A stretch of DNA of 64,000 bases from Halomarina ordinaria (lineage in GTDB: Archaea > Halobacteriota > Halobacteria > Halobacteriales > Haloarculaceae): positions 310,001 through 374,000 of the forward strand of contig NZ_JARRAH010000001.1 in assembly GCF_030553305.1 (NCBI RefSeq), read 5' to 3'. The position numbers and the translations under genes are program-made. Positions 5,867 to 17,513 of this stretch are shown here, piece after piece. Every line of letters begins with the position of its first letter. Positions within the stretch are counted from its first letter, which is position 1. The notes under the pieces were generated by a model, which was not told the origin of the DNA, did not search any database, and saw only the letters and a list, made by a program, of their open reading frames with translations.

Positions 5867-7437
5867 CGCTACCGCTCGCCCCGCTACAGGAGATTCCCAT
5901 CGCCGACAGCCCGTACGTGCTCATCTTCGGGTCGGCGTACATGCTGCTGGTGCTCGCCATCGGGGTGTGGGGCTACCTCCAGACCGAGAGCACGAGCGAC
6001 TTCCTCATCACCGGCAAGTCCATCGGGACGTGGGTGCTCGCGCTGACGGCGTTCTCCGTCATCCAGTCCGGGTTCGGCTTCGTCGGCGGCCCGGAGTTGA
6101 TATACGCCGGCGGGACGACCGCGCTGTGGATCTTCTTCAGCGCCCCCATCGGCTTCCTGCTGACGTGGGTGGTCCTCGCCAAGCGCATGCGCATCCTCGC
6201 GGACGTCCGCGACGTGTTGACGCTCGCCGACGGGATGTACGTCCGCTACGAGAGCGACACCGTCCGCGGGTTGACGGGCATCGCGGTCATCGTGGGCGTC
6301 ATCGCCTACCTCGCGACGAACCTCGCGGCGCTCCAGTACGTCATGCGCGCCATCTTCGGCATCGACGTGACGACGGGCCTGTTCGCGGGCGCGGTCATCC
6401 TGCTGTTCTACAGCATGCTCGGCGGGATGATAGCCGGCGTCTGGACGGACTTCGTCCAGGCCATCACGATGATCGTCGGTGCGGTGTTCGTCTTCTACTT
6501 CGCCATCGACTTCGGCGGCGGGATGGAGAACATCTCGCGGAACCTCGCCACGGCCGACCCGGCGCTCGTCTCGCCGTTCGGCGCGCTCGGCGACACCGCC
6601 TCGCTCGCCATCTTCAGCGCGCTCGGCTGGTGGATACTGTTCTCGGTCGGTTCGGCCGGCCAGCCCCACCTCATCACGAAGTTCTACATGAGCCGGAACC
6701 TGAAGATTCTGCGCTGGGGCGCGCCCATCGCGGCCATCTCCTACGCGGTGTCCAGCCTCCTCGCGTTCTCGACGGGCCTCTCGATGCGCTCGATGGTCGA
6801 GGCGGGTAACATCGCCGAACCCGCGAGCGCGTCCATCGTCGGTCCGCTGTTCGTCCTCGAACAGACGCCCGGTATCGTCGCGGGGCTCATCCTCGCGGCG
6901 CTGCTCGCGGCCATCATGTCCACGAGCGACTCGTTCCTCAACATCGGCGCCGCCGCCGTCTCCCGCGACCTGCCGCGGGCGTTCGGGACGCGTATCCAGG
7001 ACGACCGGGTCGAACTCCGCGTCACCCAGGCCGCGCTCGTCGGACTCACGGTCCTCTCGACGGTGGTCGTGTTCTACTCCACCGAACTCGTCGGCATCCT
7101 CGGGACCATCGGCTGGGGCTTCTTCGCGGCCGCCATCTTCCCCATCGCCGCCCTCGGGTTGAACTGGAAGGGCGCGACGCGGTGGGGCGCCATCGCCGCC
7201 GCCGTCGGCGGCATGGGCGTCAACCTGCTGTTCAGCGCCGCCCCGCGCATCCTCGACCCGCTCGGGTACGTCGGTGCCGCCGAGAGCGTCTCCGGTGCCT
7301 ACGGTTCGCTGTTCGCCGGCCTCCCCGTCGGCGTCGTCGCGCTGCTGGTCGCCATCGCGCTGTTCGTGTTCGTCTCGCTCGCCACCCAGAGCGATAACCG
7401 CGTGCCCGCGGACATCGCGGCGCTCATGGAGCGATGA
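5863..7437 (+). CDS. Sodium:solute symporter (SSS family)
   Basis: The 524-residue protein has about 13 transmembrane helices and the SSS hallmarks 'STSDFLITGKSIGTWVLALTAFS' (split across helix 1-2), 'QPHLITKFYMSRN' and the helix-8 region 'MSTSDSFLNIGAAAVSRDL', whose Ser/Thr residues help bind sodium. Members import proline, pantothenate, acetate or other carboxylates with Na+. It overlaps the upstream small membrane protein gene and the downstream gene at 7434 by four bases each. An acyl-CoA synthetase follows at 7962, which favours a monocarboxylate substrate; that is inference. Confidence 0.92.
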   Translation: MTLPLAPLQEIPIADSPYVLIFGSAYMLLVLAIGVWGYLQTESTSDFLITGKSIGTWVLALTAFSVIQSGFGFVGGPELIYAGGTTALWIFFSAPIGFLLTWVVLAKRMRILADVRDVLTLADGMYVRYESDTVRGLTGIAVIVGVIAYLATNLAALQYVMRAIFGIDVTTGLFAGAVILLFYSMLGGMIAGVWTDFVQAITMIVGAVFVFYFAIDFGGGMENISRNLATADPALVSPFGALGDTASLAIFSALGWWILFSVGSAGQPHLITKFYMSRNLKILRWGAPIAAISYAVSSLLAFSTGLSMRSMVEAGNIAEPASASIVGPLFVLEQTPGIVAGLILAALLAAIMSTSDSFLNIGAAAVSRDLPRAFGTRIQDDRVELRVTQAALVGLTVLSTVVVFYSTELVGILGTIGWGFFAAAIFPIAALGLNWKGATRWGAIAAAVGGMGVNLLFSAAPRILDPLGYVGAAESVSGAYGSLFAGLPVGVVALLVAIALFVFVSLATQSDNRVPADIAALMER

Positions 7438-11821: not shown

Positions 11822-11904
11822 GGTGGGGTGGCGGAGTGGACTAACGCGCCTGTCTTGAAAACAGGTGGCCTATGGCCTCATGGGTTCGAATCCCATCCCC
11901 ACCG
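11822..11904 (+). tRNA. tRNA-Ser (anticodon UGA)
   Basis: The acceptor stem GGTGGGG (11822-11828) pairs with CCCCACC (11897-11903), with discriminator G at 11904 and no encoded CCA. The anticodon stem is CCTGT/ACAGG around loop CTTGAAA, giving anticodon TGA at 11856-11858. A long variable arm (TGGCC TAT GGCC) and a T arm ATGGG-TTCGAAT-CCCAT identify a class II serine tRNA reading UCA codons. No intron is present. A short pyrimidine run (CTTTCCTC) just after the gene may terminate it. The low-GC segment starts about 150 bases downstream. Confidence 0.97.
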
Positions 11905-12055
11905 CTTTCCTCGTACTGGGTGCGCGTCACCACACCTGGGGAACGAGACCGACTTAATCCTATGTGACGGTGGCCCGTGGCCAATCGTAGCTGGGTTGAA
12001 TATGCGTGGGCTCATGCCCTGCGACCGTCTGGTGCGTCGGTCCTAAATATTGATA

Positions 12056-13078
12056 TCAGGAACGTCTCCAGAAGGTTCCAATGCCGATGTGTTGCCGACT
12101 GACCCCTTCTGCTTGTTCGAGAGCAGCGACTGCTTCTTCGAGTGTAGGATGCTCGTAGACCTCCCGGACTTCTGCGGTTGCGACTGGTTGGTGCTCCGCG
12201 ACGAACTCATCCACCGACCGACGAGCAGTCGCCGCTACACCCCTCGTTGCCAGCAGTACCCGCAATTCGGCGTATCTCAGCGGACCCGTCTTGGGCGCGG
12301 GAACGTCTGTCGCCACGTTCGTGACCGGGAGTTCGGGACACGCACCAGTCGGTAGGTCGACATCGTCCATGTCCGCATCGAACTGCTTCACGTCGAGATC
12401 CAGGTCCTCTGCAGTGGTCCGGAGAGTCGTCTGATCTGGAGCAATGCCTTCTGCGAAGACGGTTATCCAGGTCCGTCGGAGATACTCATCACCACATCCC
12501 TGACGCATTGCTGCAATCCAAGCACGAGTAGCCATCTCCGTCGTCTCAGGGAGATCAGACCAGACAGACGGATCCAATGGCATTCCGTTTCGAGCGGCAG
12601 GAGGTTCCTCCGGGATCTCACGGACGGGTGCCGGAACGAACTCGATATCGACCTGCTCATCGTAGTTCTCAGCGACCCGTTTCATCACTGGCTGCATATC
12701 GAACGAAACGAAGCTCAGCGGGTCGACGACCTGTGTGATAGTGACGGTGTCGTCCTCTTCCTCGTCGTCTTCGTCCTCGTCGACGTCCTTCTCCGGTTGC
12801 TCTCCTTCATCGGACTCGTTGTCATGGAACTCCTCGTCAGGAACTTCATCATTGACGGGATGTTCCTCGTCATGCTCGCCCTGCTCCTGTCCGACGAGCG
12901 ATGAGCTCCCAGCGATTGCTCCTGCACCGGCTCCGGGCCCAACAGGTCCACTCTGATTCGTCGACACCTCGTCGCTGTCCGAGAACGTAGTGACATCCGT
13001 TTGGGCGGGTTCGTCCGTCGGTTCGGGTTGCTCTTCTGTTCGGGACCAGGATGATCCTCGGGTGGAGTTGTTTCCCAT
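12056..13078 (-). CDS. DsbA-fold protein lacking catalytic cysteines, with acidic N-terminal tail
   Basis: The 340-residue protein begins with about 110 residues of low-complexity, strongly acidic sequence. A thioredoxin-like region follows, 'TVTITQVVDPLSFVSFDMQPVMKRVAENY', then a helical 'ATRAWIAAMRQGCGDEYLRRTW', the layout of the DsbA/FrnE family. The expected C-x-x-C after Asp-Pro reads S122-F-V-S125, so disulfide exchange is unlikely. The C-terminal 60 residues look like a winged helix ending 'GIGTFWR'. No signal peptide is visible. Its ATG is one base after the stop of the gene at 13080, so the two form an operon. The fold is a moderate-confidence call; the role is unknown. Confidence 0.6.
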   Translation of the reverse strand: MGNNSTRGSSWSRTEEQPEPTDEPAQTDVTTFSDSDEVSTNQSGPVGPGAGAGAIAGSSSLVGQEQGEHDEEHPVNDEVPDEEFHDNESDEGEQPEKDVDEDEDDEEEDDTVTITQVVDPLSFVSFDMQPVMKRVAENYDEQVDIEFVPAPVREIPEEPPAARNGMPLDPSVWSDLPETTEMATRAWIAAMRQGCGDEYLRRTWITVFAEGIAPDQTTLRTTAEDLDLDVKQFDADMDDVDLPTGACPELPVTNVATDVPAPKTGPLRYAELRVLLATRGVAATARRSVDEFVAEHQPVATAEVREVYEHPTLEEAVAALEQAEGVSRQHIGIGTFWRRS

Positions 13079-13079
13079 G

Positions 13080-13940
13080 TTAGTAAATCCTCAAGTTGCT
13101 CTGTTTCGCTTCGTGGTTCCATTTGAGCGCCTGATCGATTTCAGCGTCCAGCTCGCGATACTGTCTGTAGGAGTATCCGGAGGACGTCTGACATCGTGTG
13201 CGCCAGTAGTTTAGCCCAGCAGCCGACGTGACACGGGGCTCGAACTGTCGGAGTTCGTCAGGCGACATCCGACCGATTAGCATCACGTTCTCGGGGTCAA
13301 CAGTCGTAATGAAGGTCCGTGCCTCCCTTCGGTCTTTGTGGAGCGCATTTCCAGCGTGTCCACCGATAGACTGCCCACAATAGAACGCATAGTCGGTAAT
13401 CCCGTAGTCCTCTCGAAGTCGGCGATAAGGCTCGAAGTGGTCCGTGGTCCACCCCTTCTGCGTGGGCATAAGACGGATATCGTAGTCGCGATCGTTGATT
13501 TCGCGAGAGAGTTCAACGACGTATTCGACATACGCGTCAGCGACTTCAGCGATCGTGAGATCGTCCATATACCCATATGCGAAACTGACATCTGGGACAT
13601 GAATCGCTGGCTGAATCACTTCGAGGATACGGAGGACCTCGTCCATACTCCGGCCGGTGGTGATCCCGTCTTTCTCCGTTGCTGTTGTTATTGGGATGTG
13701 GTAGTCTGTGAGGACCTCTGACCACTCGTTTCGGTTGATAGCCCGCCGGGCATCGTCCAGACTGATGAGCACCGAGCGTGAACAGTGATGGGTCTCGATG
13801 AACGCTTCACACTCCACGTCAGGCAACTCAACACGGGGGACTGCACCTACGACCGGTTCGTGTATCAACCGCGACTTTATGGCCTCGTCAAGTGTCTGCT
13901 GGCCTCTATCGGTCGCGGCTCTCTGTCGGCGTGAACTCAT
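13080..13940 (-). CDS. Unknown protein, possibly related to the tRNA-guanine transglycosylase fold
   Basis: I do not recognise a firm family for this 286-residue soluble protein. Features of interest are 'TGRSMDEVLRILEVIQPAIHVPD', 'RLMPTQKGWTTDHFEPYRRL', 'YAFYCGQSIGGHAGNALHKDR' and 'MLIGRMSPDELRQFEP'. An Asp near a strand end, a Q-x-GW-x-x-D-x-x-x-x-Y segment and a G-x-S-IGG turn followed by a helix resemble the TIM-barrel of tRNA-guanine transglycosylases and the phage-type DpdA proteins that put deazaguanines into DNA. The zinc-binding C-terminus of classical TGT is absent. It is first in a two-gene operon in the low-GC segment. Confidence 0.4.
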   Translation of the reverse strand: MSSRRQRAATDRGQQTLDEAIKSRLIHEPVVGAVPRVELPDVECEAFIETHHCSRSVLISLDDARRAINRNEWSEVLTDYHIPITTATEKDGITTGRSMDEVLRILEVIQPAIHVPDVSFAYGYMDDLTIAEVADAYVEYVVELSREINDRDYDIRLMPTQKGWTTDHFEPYRRLREDYGITDYAFYCGQSIGGHAGNALHKDRREARTFITTVDPENVMLIGRMSPDELRQFEPRVTSAAGLNYWRTRCQTSSGYSYRQYRELDAEIDQALKWNHEAKQSNLRIY

Positions 13941-14272
13941 CCGGTTTGCTCGTTCCCTGTTGGTGTCAAGGGGGAACTATTCCCATCTTAGACGTCTATT
14001 AACTTAAGAGTATCGGCGATTTGCCGTTTTAGATTGGCCTAGAACATCTACATCGGGCGTGTTGGACTACTTGGCCAGCAGCTATATCATATACATCCTG
14101 TCCAGCAGCAATAACTGCCGTTACCAAATTTATTTATATACTTTTATTTCCCCCTACTGTCTCCCTTCGTTCTCGATGCCCGAGCACCACTAGTGTAACC
14201 GTAACCGACCACGCTAGCGTGACCCGTCGCCGCGGCGAAACGTATTTCTATCACCCCTACAACGATGTTCCC
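13941..14272. other. Gene-free AT-rich spacer between the low-GC operon and tupA
   Basis: This 332-base stretch contains no convincing reading frame. It holds AT-rich blocks near 13995-14010 (TTAACTTAAG, suited to a promoter for the leftward operon) and 14133-14140 (TTTATATA), and the tupA promoter near its right end. Composition changes from about half GC to high GC around 14160-14230, marking the right edge of the accessory segment. No direct repeat of the tRNA end was seen. Confidence 0.5.
14239..14250 (+). promoter_or_regulatory. Core promoter of tupABC
   Basis: AACGTATTTCTA, preceded by a purine-rich GCGAA that could act as BRE, is centred 27-28 bases before the ATG at 14273. That is the spacing expected for a leaderless haloarchaeal transcript. 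A second AT-rich element, TTTATATA at 14133-14140, is farther away and could be an alternative start for a longer leader. Confidence 0.45.
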
Positions 14273-15292
14273 ATGCAGATACAACGCCGAGCGTTCCTCG
14301 CCGCGGCGGCGAGCGGGGCGCTGGCAGGGCTCGCCGGGTGTACGGAACAGCTCGCTGGCGGCAGCGGCGACGGCGCCGACGTGGCCGGCGAGACGCTGAC
14401 GCTGACGACGACGACCAGCACGTACGACACGGGCCTCCTCGACGAGTTGAACGTCCCGTTCGAGGAGATGTACGGCGTGACCGTCGACTCGGTGTCCCAG
14501 GGGACCGGCGAGGCCATCGAGACCGCCAGCAACGGCGATTCTGACGTGGTGATGGTCCACGCGCGTTCCCAGGAGGACGAGTTCATGGAGGAGGGGTACG
14601 GCGTCAACCGCCGTGACATCATGTTCAACGACTTCGTCGTCGTCGGTCCCGAGGACGACCCGGCGGGCATCGAGGGGACGGAGTCCGCCGAGGAGGCGTT
14701 CGCGACCATCGCCGAGGAGGAGGCGACGTTCGTCTCCCGCGGTGACAACTCCGGGACGCACACCAAGGAACTCGCCATCTGGGAGGAGGCGGGGGTCGAC
14801 CCGGGCGGCGACTGGTACAACGAGACCGGCCAGGGGATGGGCGAGGTGCTCAACGTCACCAACGAACAGGAGGGCTACACCCTCGCGGACCGGGGGACGT
14901 ACCTCTCGCAGCGCTCGGAGATCGACCTCGTCATCCTCGTCCAGGGACCGATAGAGGGCGGACCGGAGTTGCTCTCGAACCCCTACGGCATCATGGCGGT
15001 GAACCCCGCTGTGCACGACAACGTCAACTACGACCTCGCGATGGCGTACATCGGCTACATCACCAGCCCGGAGGCCCAGCAGCTCATCGAGGACTTCGAG
15101 GCCAACGGCGAACAGCTCTTCTTCCCGCGGGCGCTCTCGGAGGAGCCCGACTTCCAGCAGTACGTGCCCGAGGGGTGGAGCAGCGAGTCGGCGAACGGCA
15201 CCGCGACGAACGGTACCACGAACGGTAGTAATACGACGGGGGGCAACGCGACGGGCGGTAACGCGACGGAGAACAACGCGTCGAGCGAGTGA
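14273..15292 (+). CDS. tupA: Tungstate ABC transporter substrate-binding lipoprotein
   Basis: The 339-residue exported lipoprotein binds tungstate (or molybdate) for the TupBC transporter. A Tat-like twin arginine (R5, R6) precedes a hydrophobic stretch and a lipobox LAGC with Cys23 as lipid anchor. The mature part has the TupA pattern '[12 protein letters not shown]', '[21 protein letters not shown]', '[15 protein letters not shown]' and '[12 protein letters not shown]'. The last 34 residues are a low-complexity tail with seven N-x-S/T sequons. An in-frame ATG at 14219 would precede the twin arginine by 18 extra residues and is unlikely. The permease gene overlaps its stop codon (GTGA). Confidence 0.93.
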
Positions 15293-16008
15293 CCGTGTCT
15301 CCCGTTGCGAGTCCCGCTCCGCTCGCGTTCGTCGAGTTCCCGTTCGAACCCGTGTACGTCCTGAGCACCATCGAGGTGTCGCTGTACGTGAGCGTCATCG
15401 CGGTCCTGTTGAGTTCGCTCGTGAGCCTCCCCGTCGCGCTGGCGCTCGGGTTCACGGAGTTCCCGGGCAAGCGCTTCGCCGTGTCGGTCATCAACACCGG
15501 GATGGGCTTCCCGAGCGTCGTCGTCGGCCTCGTCGTGCTGTTCGCCGTCTCGAACCAGGGGCCGCTCGGCGAACTGGACCTGATGTTCACGAAGCGGGCG
15601 ATGATCATCTCGCAGTTCGTGCTGGCGACGCCCGCCATCACGGCCATCAGCCTCGCGGCCGTCGCCGGCGTCGAGCAGAACGTCCGCGACGCCGCCCGCG
15701 TCCTCGGCGGCACCAGGACCGACGTCGCCCTCGTCACCCTCAAGGAGGCGCGGTACGGCATCGCCACCGCCGTCCTCGCCGGGTTCGGCCGGGCGATAAG
15801 CGAGGTGGGGTCCGTCCTCATCGTCGGGGGGAACATCGCGGGCGCGGACGGCATCTCGAAGACGCGCACGCTGACGACCGCCATCCAGCTCGAGGCGCGA
15901 CAGGGGCGCTACGAGACGGCGATGGTGCTCGGTGCCGTCCTCGTCGGCGTCGTGCTGGTGGTGAACGCCATCGTCGTCCGCCTCGGCGACGAGGGGGTGG
16001 TGCGGTGA
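15289..16008 (+). CDS. tupB: Tungstate ABC transporter permease
   Basis: The 239-residue membrane protein has about five to six transmembrane helices. The inner-membrane coupling loop reads '[30 protein letters not shown]', matching the EAA motif of binding-protein-dependent permeases. '[24 protein letters not shown]' is typical of TupB. The GTG start overlaps the tupA stop; a second GTG six bases on is also possible. Transport is driven by TupC, whose gene overlaps this one by four bases. Confidence 0.93.
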
Positions 16009-16772
16009 CGCTCCGCGCTCGCGACGTCTCGCTCGCCTACGACGGGACGACCGTCCTCGACGGCCTCTCGCTCACCGTCGAGGGGGGCGAGGTGGTCGCG
16101 GTCATCGGCCCGTCCGGTGTCGGGAAGACGACGCTGCTGCGACTGTTGGCGCTGTTCGAGCGTCCCGACGACGGGACCGTCGAGTTCGACGGCGTCGACG
16201 TCTGGGCCGCCGGCGAGAGCGAGCGCCTCGCGCTCCGTCGACGTATCGGGATGGTGTTCCAGGACGCCGGGCTGTTCGACGCCAGCGTGGCCCGGAACGT
16301 CGAGTACGGCCTCCGGATACGGCGCTCGTGGCGCGACCGGGTCGGCGAGGAACTCCGCTCACTCGTCCGGTCGAACGGCCACCCCGCCGCCGTCGAGGAG
16401 GCGCTGACGGTCGTCGGGCTCGCCGACAGCCGCGAGCAGACGGCGCGGTCGCTCTCCGGCGGCGAGGCCCAGCGCGTCTCGTTCGCCCGGGCGCTCGCGT
16501 ACGACCCCGACGTCCTCCTGCTCGACGAACCGACCTCGGACCTCGACCCGCGCAACACCGCCGTCATCGAGGAGGCCATCACCGAGGCGCGCGACCGGGG
16601 CATCGGCGTCGTCGTCGCCACCCACGACATGCACCAGGCCCAGCGCGTCGCGGACCGGGTCGCCGTCCTGCTCGACGCCGACGTCAGCGAGTGTGGGCCG
16701 ACGGAGGCCGTCTTCGAGAACCCGACCGACGCTCGCACCCGAAAGTTCATCTCCGGGGAACTGGTCTACTGA
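16005..16772 (+). CDS. tupC: Tungstate ABC transporter ATP-binding protein
   Basis: The 255-residue ATPase powers tungstate import on the cytoplasmic side. It has Walker [10 protein letters not shown] near residue 37, signature [15 protein letters not shown], Walker [13 protein letters not shown] and switch His in ATHDM. There is no C-terminal TOBE regulatory domain, unlike ModC; a TOBE domain is instead on the downstream regulator. The GTG start overlaps the tupB stop (GTGA), completing a tightly coupled tupABC operon. Confidence 0.93.
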
Positions 16773-16823
16773 GCGAACCGGGGACGCTTTCTCCCCTCGC
16801 CGCACACCCACATCGAACGACCC

Positions 16824-17513
16824 ATGACGACGAGAAAGGGGTTCGAGCCCCACCTCGCGACCGACGACGTCACCGTCACCCGGCGGGACGTCGAGATGCT
16901 CCGGGCCATCGCCGAGCACGGGTCGATGCACGCCGCGGCGACGGAACTGGGGCGGTCGTATCCACACCTCCAGCGGCGGGTCGTCGAACTGGAGGAGGCC
17001 CTCGGCCCGCTGACGACCCGCGTCCGGGGGGGCAAGGGCGGCGGCGGGACGGAACTCACGCCCGCGGCGGTCGACCTCGTCGGGCGGTTCGAGCGCCTCC
17101 GCGTCGAACTCGCGGGCGTGGCGACCGTCACCGAGTCCGTGATTCCGGGGACGGTCGTCGACCGCGACGGCGAACTGGCGACCGTCAGCACCCCGGCTGG
17201 CGACCTCACGGCCCGGACGCCGGTGGAGGCGACCGACGTCGAAATCGCCGTCCGGTCGGACGCGGTGGTCCTCGTGGCGCCGGGGGCCACCTCGGGGACG
17301 AGCCTGCGCAACCGGCTCACCGGGACGGTGGCCGCCATCGACGCCGGCGACGCCATCGCGACGGTCACGGTCGGCGTCGCCGAGGGCGTCGACCTCGCGG
17401 CCGTCGTGACCTGCGAGAGCGTCGACCGTCTCGACCTCGCGGTGGGCGACGAGGTGGTCGCCGCGTTCAAGACGACGGCGGCGCGGGCCATCGACCCACC
17501 GCTGGGTGACTAG
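16824..17513 (+). CDS. ModE-like molybdate/tungstate-responsive regulator
   Basis: The 229-residue protein has an N-terminal LysR/ModE-type winged helix ('VEMLRAIAEHGSMHAAATELGRSYPHLQRRVVELE', shown here as one helix-turn-helix region around residues 22-60). Two TOBE/molbindin segments follow, the second beginning 'TSLRNRLTGTVAAIDAG' and ending 'VAAFKTTAARAI'. ModE-type proteins bind oxyanions through molbindin domains and repress uptake genes. It lies 51 bases after tupC on the same strand and converges with purF; their stop codons overlap (CTAG). The likely target is the tup promoter; this is inference. Confidence 0.88.
   Translation: MTTRKGFEPHLATDDVTVTRRDVEMLRAIAEHGSMHAAATELGRSYPHLQRRVVELEEALGPLTTRVRGGKGGGGTELTPAAVDLVGRFERLRVELAGVATVTESVIPGTVVDRDGELATVSTPAGDLTARTPVEATDVEIAVRSDAVVLVAPGATSGTSLRNRLTGTVAAIDAGDAIATVTVGVAEGVDLAAVVTCESVDRLDLAVGDEVVAAFKTTAARAIDPPLGD

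Follow-up and report, generated by a model that had tools for sequence, protein, structure and literature searches.

In the archaeon Halomarina ordinaria, a short segment next to a tRNA-Ser(UGA) gene holds two genes, here called A and B, both of which lie on the minus strand with A first and with a single base separating the TAA of A from the ATG of B. The segment was analysed within a stretch of 64,000 nucleotides (C1:310001-374000), which we call the window and to which coordinates refer unless another locus is named. The features are as follows.

11822-11905, plus strand: tRNA-Ser(UGA), identified by ARAGORN, the left edge of a variable interval and syntenic in seven congeners
12056-13078, minus strand: gene B, the second in the operon, whose 340-aa product begins with Met-Gly; about 20 loci have an ortholog immediately downstream of A
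12059-12760, minus strand: B residues 107-340, YjbH/SpxH-like (DsbA-type thioredoxin fold plus C-terminal domain), from fold and profile
12755-13078, minus strand: B residues 1-108, disordered Met-Gly tail with acidic linker, from pLDDT and the MGNNSTRG start
12983-13003, minus strand: PIP-box-like QTDVTTF in the tail of B, from a motif count, with Q26 nearly invariant
13080-13940, minus strand: gene A, the first in the operon, whose 286-aa product is Cap10-like with a TGT fold, from PADLOC PDLC00912 and the AlphaFold2 fold
13083-13103, minus strand: PIP-box-like QSNLRIY at the C-terminus of A, from a motif count
13215-13217, minus strand: codon of Gly242, an invariant column where TGTs have the nucleophile Asp, placed by motif and spacing
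13941-14252, minus strand: AT-rich leader (48% GC) upstream of gene A, a probable promoter region judged by composition

A reading made beforehand from the letters of the window, the sequence-only reading, had described a low-GC segment after the tRNA with two genes one base apart, and both the GC profile and the ORF coordinates show that this segment is real. The GC content was said to fall to about half, which is right if it means that about half of the bases are G or C and wrong if it means half of the former value, as GC goes from about 0.70 before the segment to 0.57 over 12056-13940; it is 0.57 over 11906-12055 and 0.48 over 13941-14252. The deviating codon use was borne out as well, with A and B the top two outliers among the 53 predicted genes of the window in codon-usage distance (0.203 and 0.189, against a median of 0.066) and the lowest two in GC3 (0.61 and 0.64, against a median of 0.935).

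All seven congeners examined share the order of upstream genes, tRNA-Ser and purF, but their interval from tRNA-Ser to purF consists of 0.7-3.9 kb of unrelated sequence. The genes named by eye in it are subtilase-like in four congeners and threonine-synthase-like in two. We checked whether A and B occupy the same site in most relatives and found them absent in 7/7, with no match to the A/B segment anywhere in this interval. An att-type direct repeat of the tRNA end was sought at the locus and none was found, as the sequence-only reading had noted, and no integrase was found with the pair. The interval varies among the congeners, the segment is missing there and no att repeat was found; the pair has therefore arrived in this variable interval recently and, as far as is visible, is not a tRNA-integrase island. 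The link to the tRNA that had been put forward is positional only, the interval being variable across the whole genus. Between the pair and purF, positions 14253-17513 hold an apparent tungstate/molybdate-type transporter operon with a regulator, which is without a syntenic copy in the same interval of the congeners.

Folds and families of the two proteins

Searches of Pfam, PHROGs and NCBIfam with A gave nothing useful, and neither the sequence of A nor its profile retrieved a TGT from the PDB, so that the fold search alone found this relationship. The AlphaFold2 model of A (pLDDT 85, pTM 0.85) matches archaeal and bacterial TGTs at Z of about 18 over about 250 residues, the match to archaeal TGT 1iq8 having Z 18.1 over 253 residues with an rmsd of 3.8, while sequence identity to TGTs is only 10%. 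A thus shares the TIM-barrel fold of TgtA and the bacterial TGTs, but it lacks their CxCxxC...H zinc site and their RNA-binding domains, and it has a glycine at the nucleophile position. This residue, Gly242, sits 21 residues past the Leu of an LIG/LFG strand, like Asp237 of haloarchaeal TgtA, and is one of two invariant residues among 29 aligned A homologs, none of which has Asp at this position. The position was assigned by strand motif and spacing rather than by superposition, because a profile-profile comparison (hhalign) of A with haloarchaeal TgtA gave no alignment. The near-invariant residues of A, among them Asp91, Lys162 and Gln190, are specific to its family.

The PADLOC model PDLC00912, named 'TGT', matches A at E 3.3e-25 over residues 21-273. 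The same model scores 4.7e-140 on a protein encoded beside a SMODS CD-NTase at another locus (L026), and as a control it gave no match to the genome's own archaeosine TGT (TgtA). Judged by these profile matches, A is a member of the Cap10 (PADLOC TGT) family, a CBASS accessory of type IV CBASS. The PADLOC DpdA profile does not match A and gives a weak match to TgtA. Brig1 was considered as kin of A and dropped, as it has a uracil-DNA-glycosylase fold (PMC11078745).

In B, residues 1-110 have pLDDT mostly of 40-59 and are without predicted secondary structure, and Gly2, which follows Met1, is an invariant column in 18 aligned orthologs. The remainder of the protein has the whole fold of YjbH/SpxH, a ClpXP adaptor of Firmicutes (6ghb, 6gho), with a full-length match to 6gho at Z 25.7 and an rmsd of 2.4 over 233 aa (25% identity) and a profile match to 6ghb at E 4.6e-31. 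YjbH is a protease adaptor for Spx (PMC7253607). B differs from YjbH/SpxH in being archaeal and coupled to a TGT-fold gene, in its added Gly-headed acidic tail and in having no catalytic-type cysteines: the thioredoxin CxxC is replaced by SxxS (SFVS in the window), the orthologs have SAMS, SALS, DNVG and similar sequences at this position, and the cysteines are gone in every aligned ortholog, whereas chromosomal relatives of B retain CTWC or STWC.

Five B orthologs (L068, L069, L070, L074, L078) start with MFVFLG, where a Leu (CTT) precedes the Gly, so in these the Gly that follows the upstream MFVF start is not N-terminal without processing. MFVFMG also precedes unrelated partner bodies (L019, L083), with the stretch ATGTTCGTATTC kept at the DNA level.

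Both proteins carry motifs that resemble a PIP-box. Of 23 non-redundant A proteins, 16 have the pattern Q..[LIVMF]..[FYW] within their last 35 aa, against 0.96 expected from shuffles; of 31 partners, 15 have the same strict pattern within their first 70 aa, against 0.37 expected. The PIP-box consensus is QxxI/L/MxxFF/Y near a terminus (PMC2737543), which the motifs of A and B resemble but with one aromatic residue instead of two. As a hint only, these motifs suggest that a complex of A and B may be held at PCNA near replicating DNA.

Distribution, neighbours and partners

Relatives of A are present in 54 of 392 genomes of the order, and a gene of the B type adjoins A in the same order in about 20 fetched loci besides the window. 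The best match, at 57% identity, comes from a different family, and close ones are missing from all congeners. A third gene common to the A/B loci was sought and not found, so the 'minimal cargo unit' with a 'little-described two-protein system' of the sequence-only reading is well described as a conserved two-gene operon with about 20 further loci and no third gene shared. All 11 plasmid matches are haloarchaeal and have A annotated as 'hypothetical protein', and B is annotated 'DsbA family protein' in two inspected records. The A/B loci have among their neighbours type IIG restriction-modification, Lamassu LmuB and a CBASS cyclase with Cap15 (the PADLOC matches among them include generic models), along with DUF499/phosphatase/methyltransferase genes, integrases and transposases. 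Single-protein scans of viral contigs and phage records and a viral scan with the B profile found no relative, and neither did single-protein scans of genome contigs. Where a joint occurrence of both proteins in other haloarchaea, viruses and defence islands had been envisaged, it was found in other haloarchaea, on plasmids and in defence-rich regions, but not in viral contigs or phage records. A and B form an intact, conserved, horizontally moving two-gene operon that occurs on plasmids and in defence-rich regions. An HFX_2341-like regulator gene, not present in the window, recurs near various types of A homolog, in nine loci including L022 (7581-8642).

The gene that immediately follows A starts with Met-Gly or M(F/V/I)xF[M/L]-Gly in 54 of 65 archaeal loci, counted by hand, against a Gly2 background of 2/39 neighbouring CDS. 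Outside the B type, these Met-Gly partners are SMODS CD-NTases in seven loci (L022, L025, L026, L165, L169, L174, L184), another type of CD-NTase in two (L024, L030) and a ThsB-type TIR in L166 (2362-2874; ThsB_TIR E 1.4e-17), and the remainder include small Met-Gly-headed proteins without an assigned family. In L200 and L203, from the same phylum and outside the order, a TGT-like gene is followed by a partner that starts with MGGG and was read by eye as TIR-like. The TIR loci (L166, L200, L203) have their layout in common with the window pair but a TIR body in place of the YjbH-like one, and a TGT-like gene with a Met-Gly-headed TIR is likely a separate system of the same layout. The A homolog in L167 is immediately followed, at 2-2629, by a gene for a Met-Gly-headed protein at least 876 aa long, to which Pfam has no match.

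Six loci with a divergent A (L029, L031, L168, L179, L181, L183) have partners headed by MPRK or MTRK, which belong to one small family with Met-Gly-headed relatives in L019, L083, L084 and L085. Lys162 and Gln190 are lost in L029, the one divergent A that was aligned, and this loss would fit a lost ability to bind the tail.

Proposed role and alternatives

Type IV CBASS and qatABCD are among the closest systems with which the pair can be compared. Cap10 of type IV CBASS binds the nucleobase-modified N-terminus of the CD-NTase and is needed for defence (PMC11996544). Disordered tails carry the MGGS N-terminus of the type IV CBASS CD-NTase and the MGTS of QatB, which is essential (PMC13279940), so that an N-terminal glycine is a modified or essential residue in both systems. 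Like type IV CBASS, the window has a protein of the Cap10 family encoded beside a Met-Gly partner with a disordered tail, but the partner is YjbH-like, and with both the CD-NTase and a linked Cap9 absent the pair is not type IV CBASS. B likewise shares with QatB a long disordered tail with a conserved N-terminal Met-Gly motif, but Qat has the QueC-like QatC, whereas the window pair has a protein with the TGT fold and is not linked to a QueC-like gene.

Our preferred reading, in which we place an even measure of confidence, is that the pair is a compact, mobile, Cap10-like antiviral module, akin to the modification arm of type IV CBASS, with a redox-dead adaptor in place of the CD-NTase. It starts from what is observed here, namely the folds and the family, the missing catalytic features, the conserved pairing, Gly2 and the mobility of the genes. 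Removal of Met1 would expose the Gly of B, which would carry a nucleobase conjugate (7-deazaguanine in type IV CBASS), and, since the pair has no linked Cap9-like gene, this conjugate would be produced in trans. The base-binding pocket of A would hold the modified tail and in this way sequester, position or license B. Upon infection the complex would change state, releasing or activating B, and the adaptor-like domain of B would then bind a target. The complex may be tethered at PCNA through the PIP-box-like motifs.

The nature of the conjugate was approached through QueC. The window species has one canonical full-length QueC match, at C1:645445, about 322 kb from the pair, and no Cap9/QueC-like gene is linked to the pair. 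When QueC was compared with 35 A loci, only two gave matches, L026 with a canonical-looking queC 4 kb away and L072 with 3'-end fragments of queC. QueC is undetectable in four genomes that carry A and a partner (G009, G349, G178, G273), which are nearly complete and have TgtA, and a QueD-type protein is undetectable as well in G009 and G178. A 7-deazaguanine conjugate made by QueC therefore cannot be general; a QueC-made deazaguanine on Gly2 is possible in the species of the window and is not to be assumed for the whole set. Fragments of the queC 3' end lie at L072:5649-5873 and 7152-7313, G177:C10:62503, G220:C2:1053 and G379:C63:32264, and they suggest that integration in haloarchaea targets queC. 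A CBASS-like locus in G087 lies 4 kb from the only queC of that genome.

A wider proposal, which we offer tentatively, is that Cap10-like TGT-fold proteins may form a hub of archaeal immunity in general, beyond CBASS, in which one tail-handling protein works with interchangeable Gly-headed bodies (CD-NTase, TIR, YjbH-like and others) and the complex is located at the replication clamp. Where QueC is missing, another conjugate or another logic would apply, for example salvaged 7-deazaguanine or another base.

Four other explanations have to be weighed. The pair may work without any nucleobase chemistry on B, A being a chaperone or antitoxin that binds the tail and neutralises a toxic or signalling effector B until infection frees it. 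Such an arrangement would suit genes that overlap or nearly do so, a first gene that is conserved while the effector domain varies by locus, TIR and CD-NTase partners that are effector- or signal-type domains, and a layout that persists in genomes without QueC. We nevertheless think it unlikely, as it leaves the conserved Gly2 and the nucleobase-pocket fold to be accounted for in some other way, and the YjbH-like domain is without known toxic activity. That the pair has nothing to do with defence and is instead an acquired stress-regulation pair, in which B would serve protein turnover as a YjbH/SpxH-like adaptor under the regulation of A, draws on the full-length structural match of B to the Spx protease adaptor YjbH. 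This strikes us as quite improbable given that B has lost the CxxC, the loci lie among defence genes and on plasmids, A is akin to a CBASS accessory, and exchange of partner domains is typical of immune modules.

There is little to recommend A as an active base-exchange enzyme (DpdA-like or of tRNA type) on DNA or tRNA, with B as its DsbA-type redox partner. A does have the TGT fold, as has DpdA, which reportedly serves in DNA-modification systems, and relatives of B are annotated 'DsbA family protein', but the 29 A proteins have an invariant Gly where the nucleophile Asp would be and no CxCxxC zinc site, A has no match to the PADLOC DpdA profile, and the CxxC kept in chromosomal relatives is gone in B. 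An island remnant, as the sequence-only reading had suggested, or a decayed provirus left by an integrase beside the tRNA-Ser is scarcely credible despite the tRNA adjacency and the low GC. The two genes are intact and are conserved across about 20 loci, neither an integrase nor an att repeat was found, phage records and viral contigs gave no match, and the variable interval of the congeners has unrelated contents.

Conjugation of a nucleobase to a protein was reportedly described in 2025 for type IV CBASS. If the antiviral reading of the pair is true, an N-terminal-glycine device would be common to many archaeal immune modules with differing output domains, and the window pair would be a minimal two-gene version of it without cyclic-nucleotide signalling. 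The reading predicts a specific post-translational modification and would give a role to proteins whose annotation now reads only 'hypothetical' or 'DsbA family'. The genomes without QueC provide a natural test of which chemistry is used.
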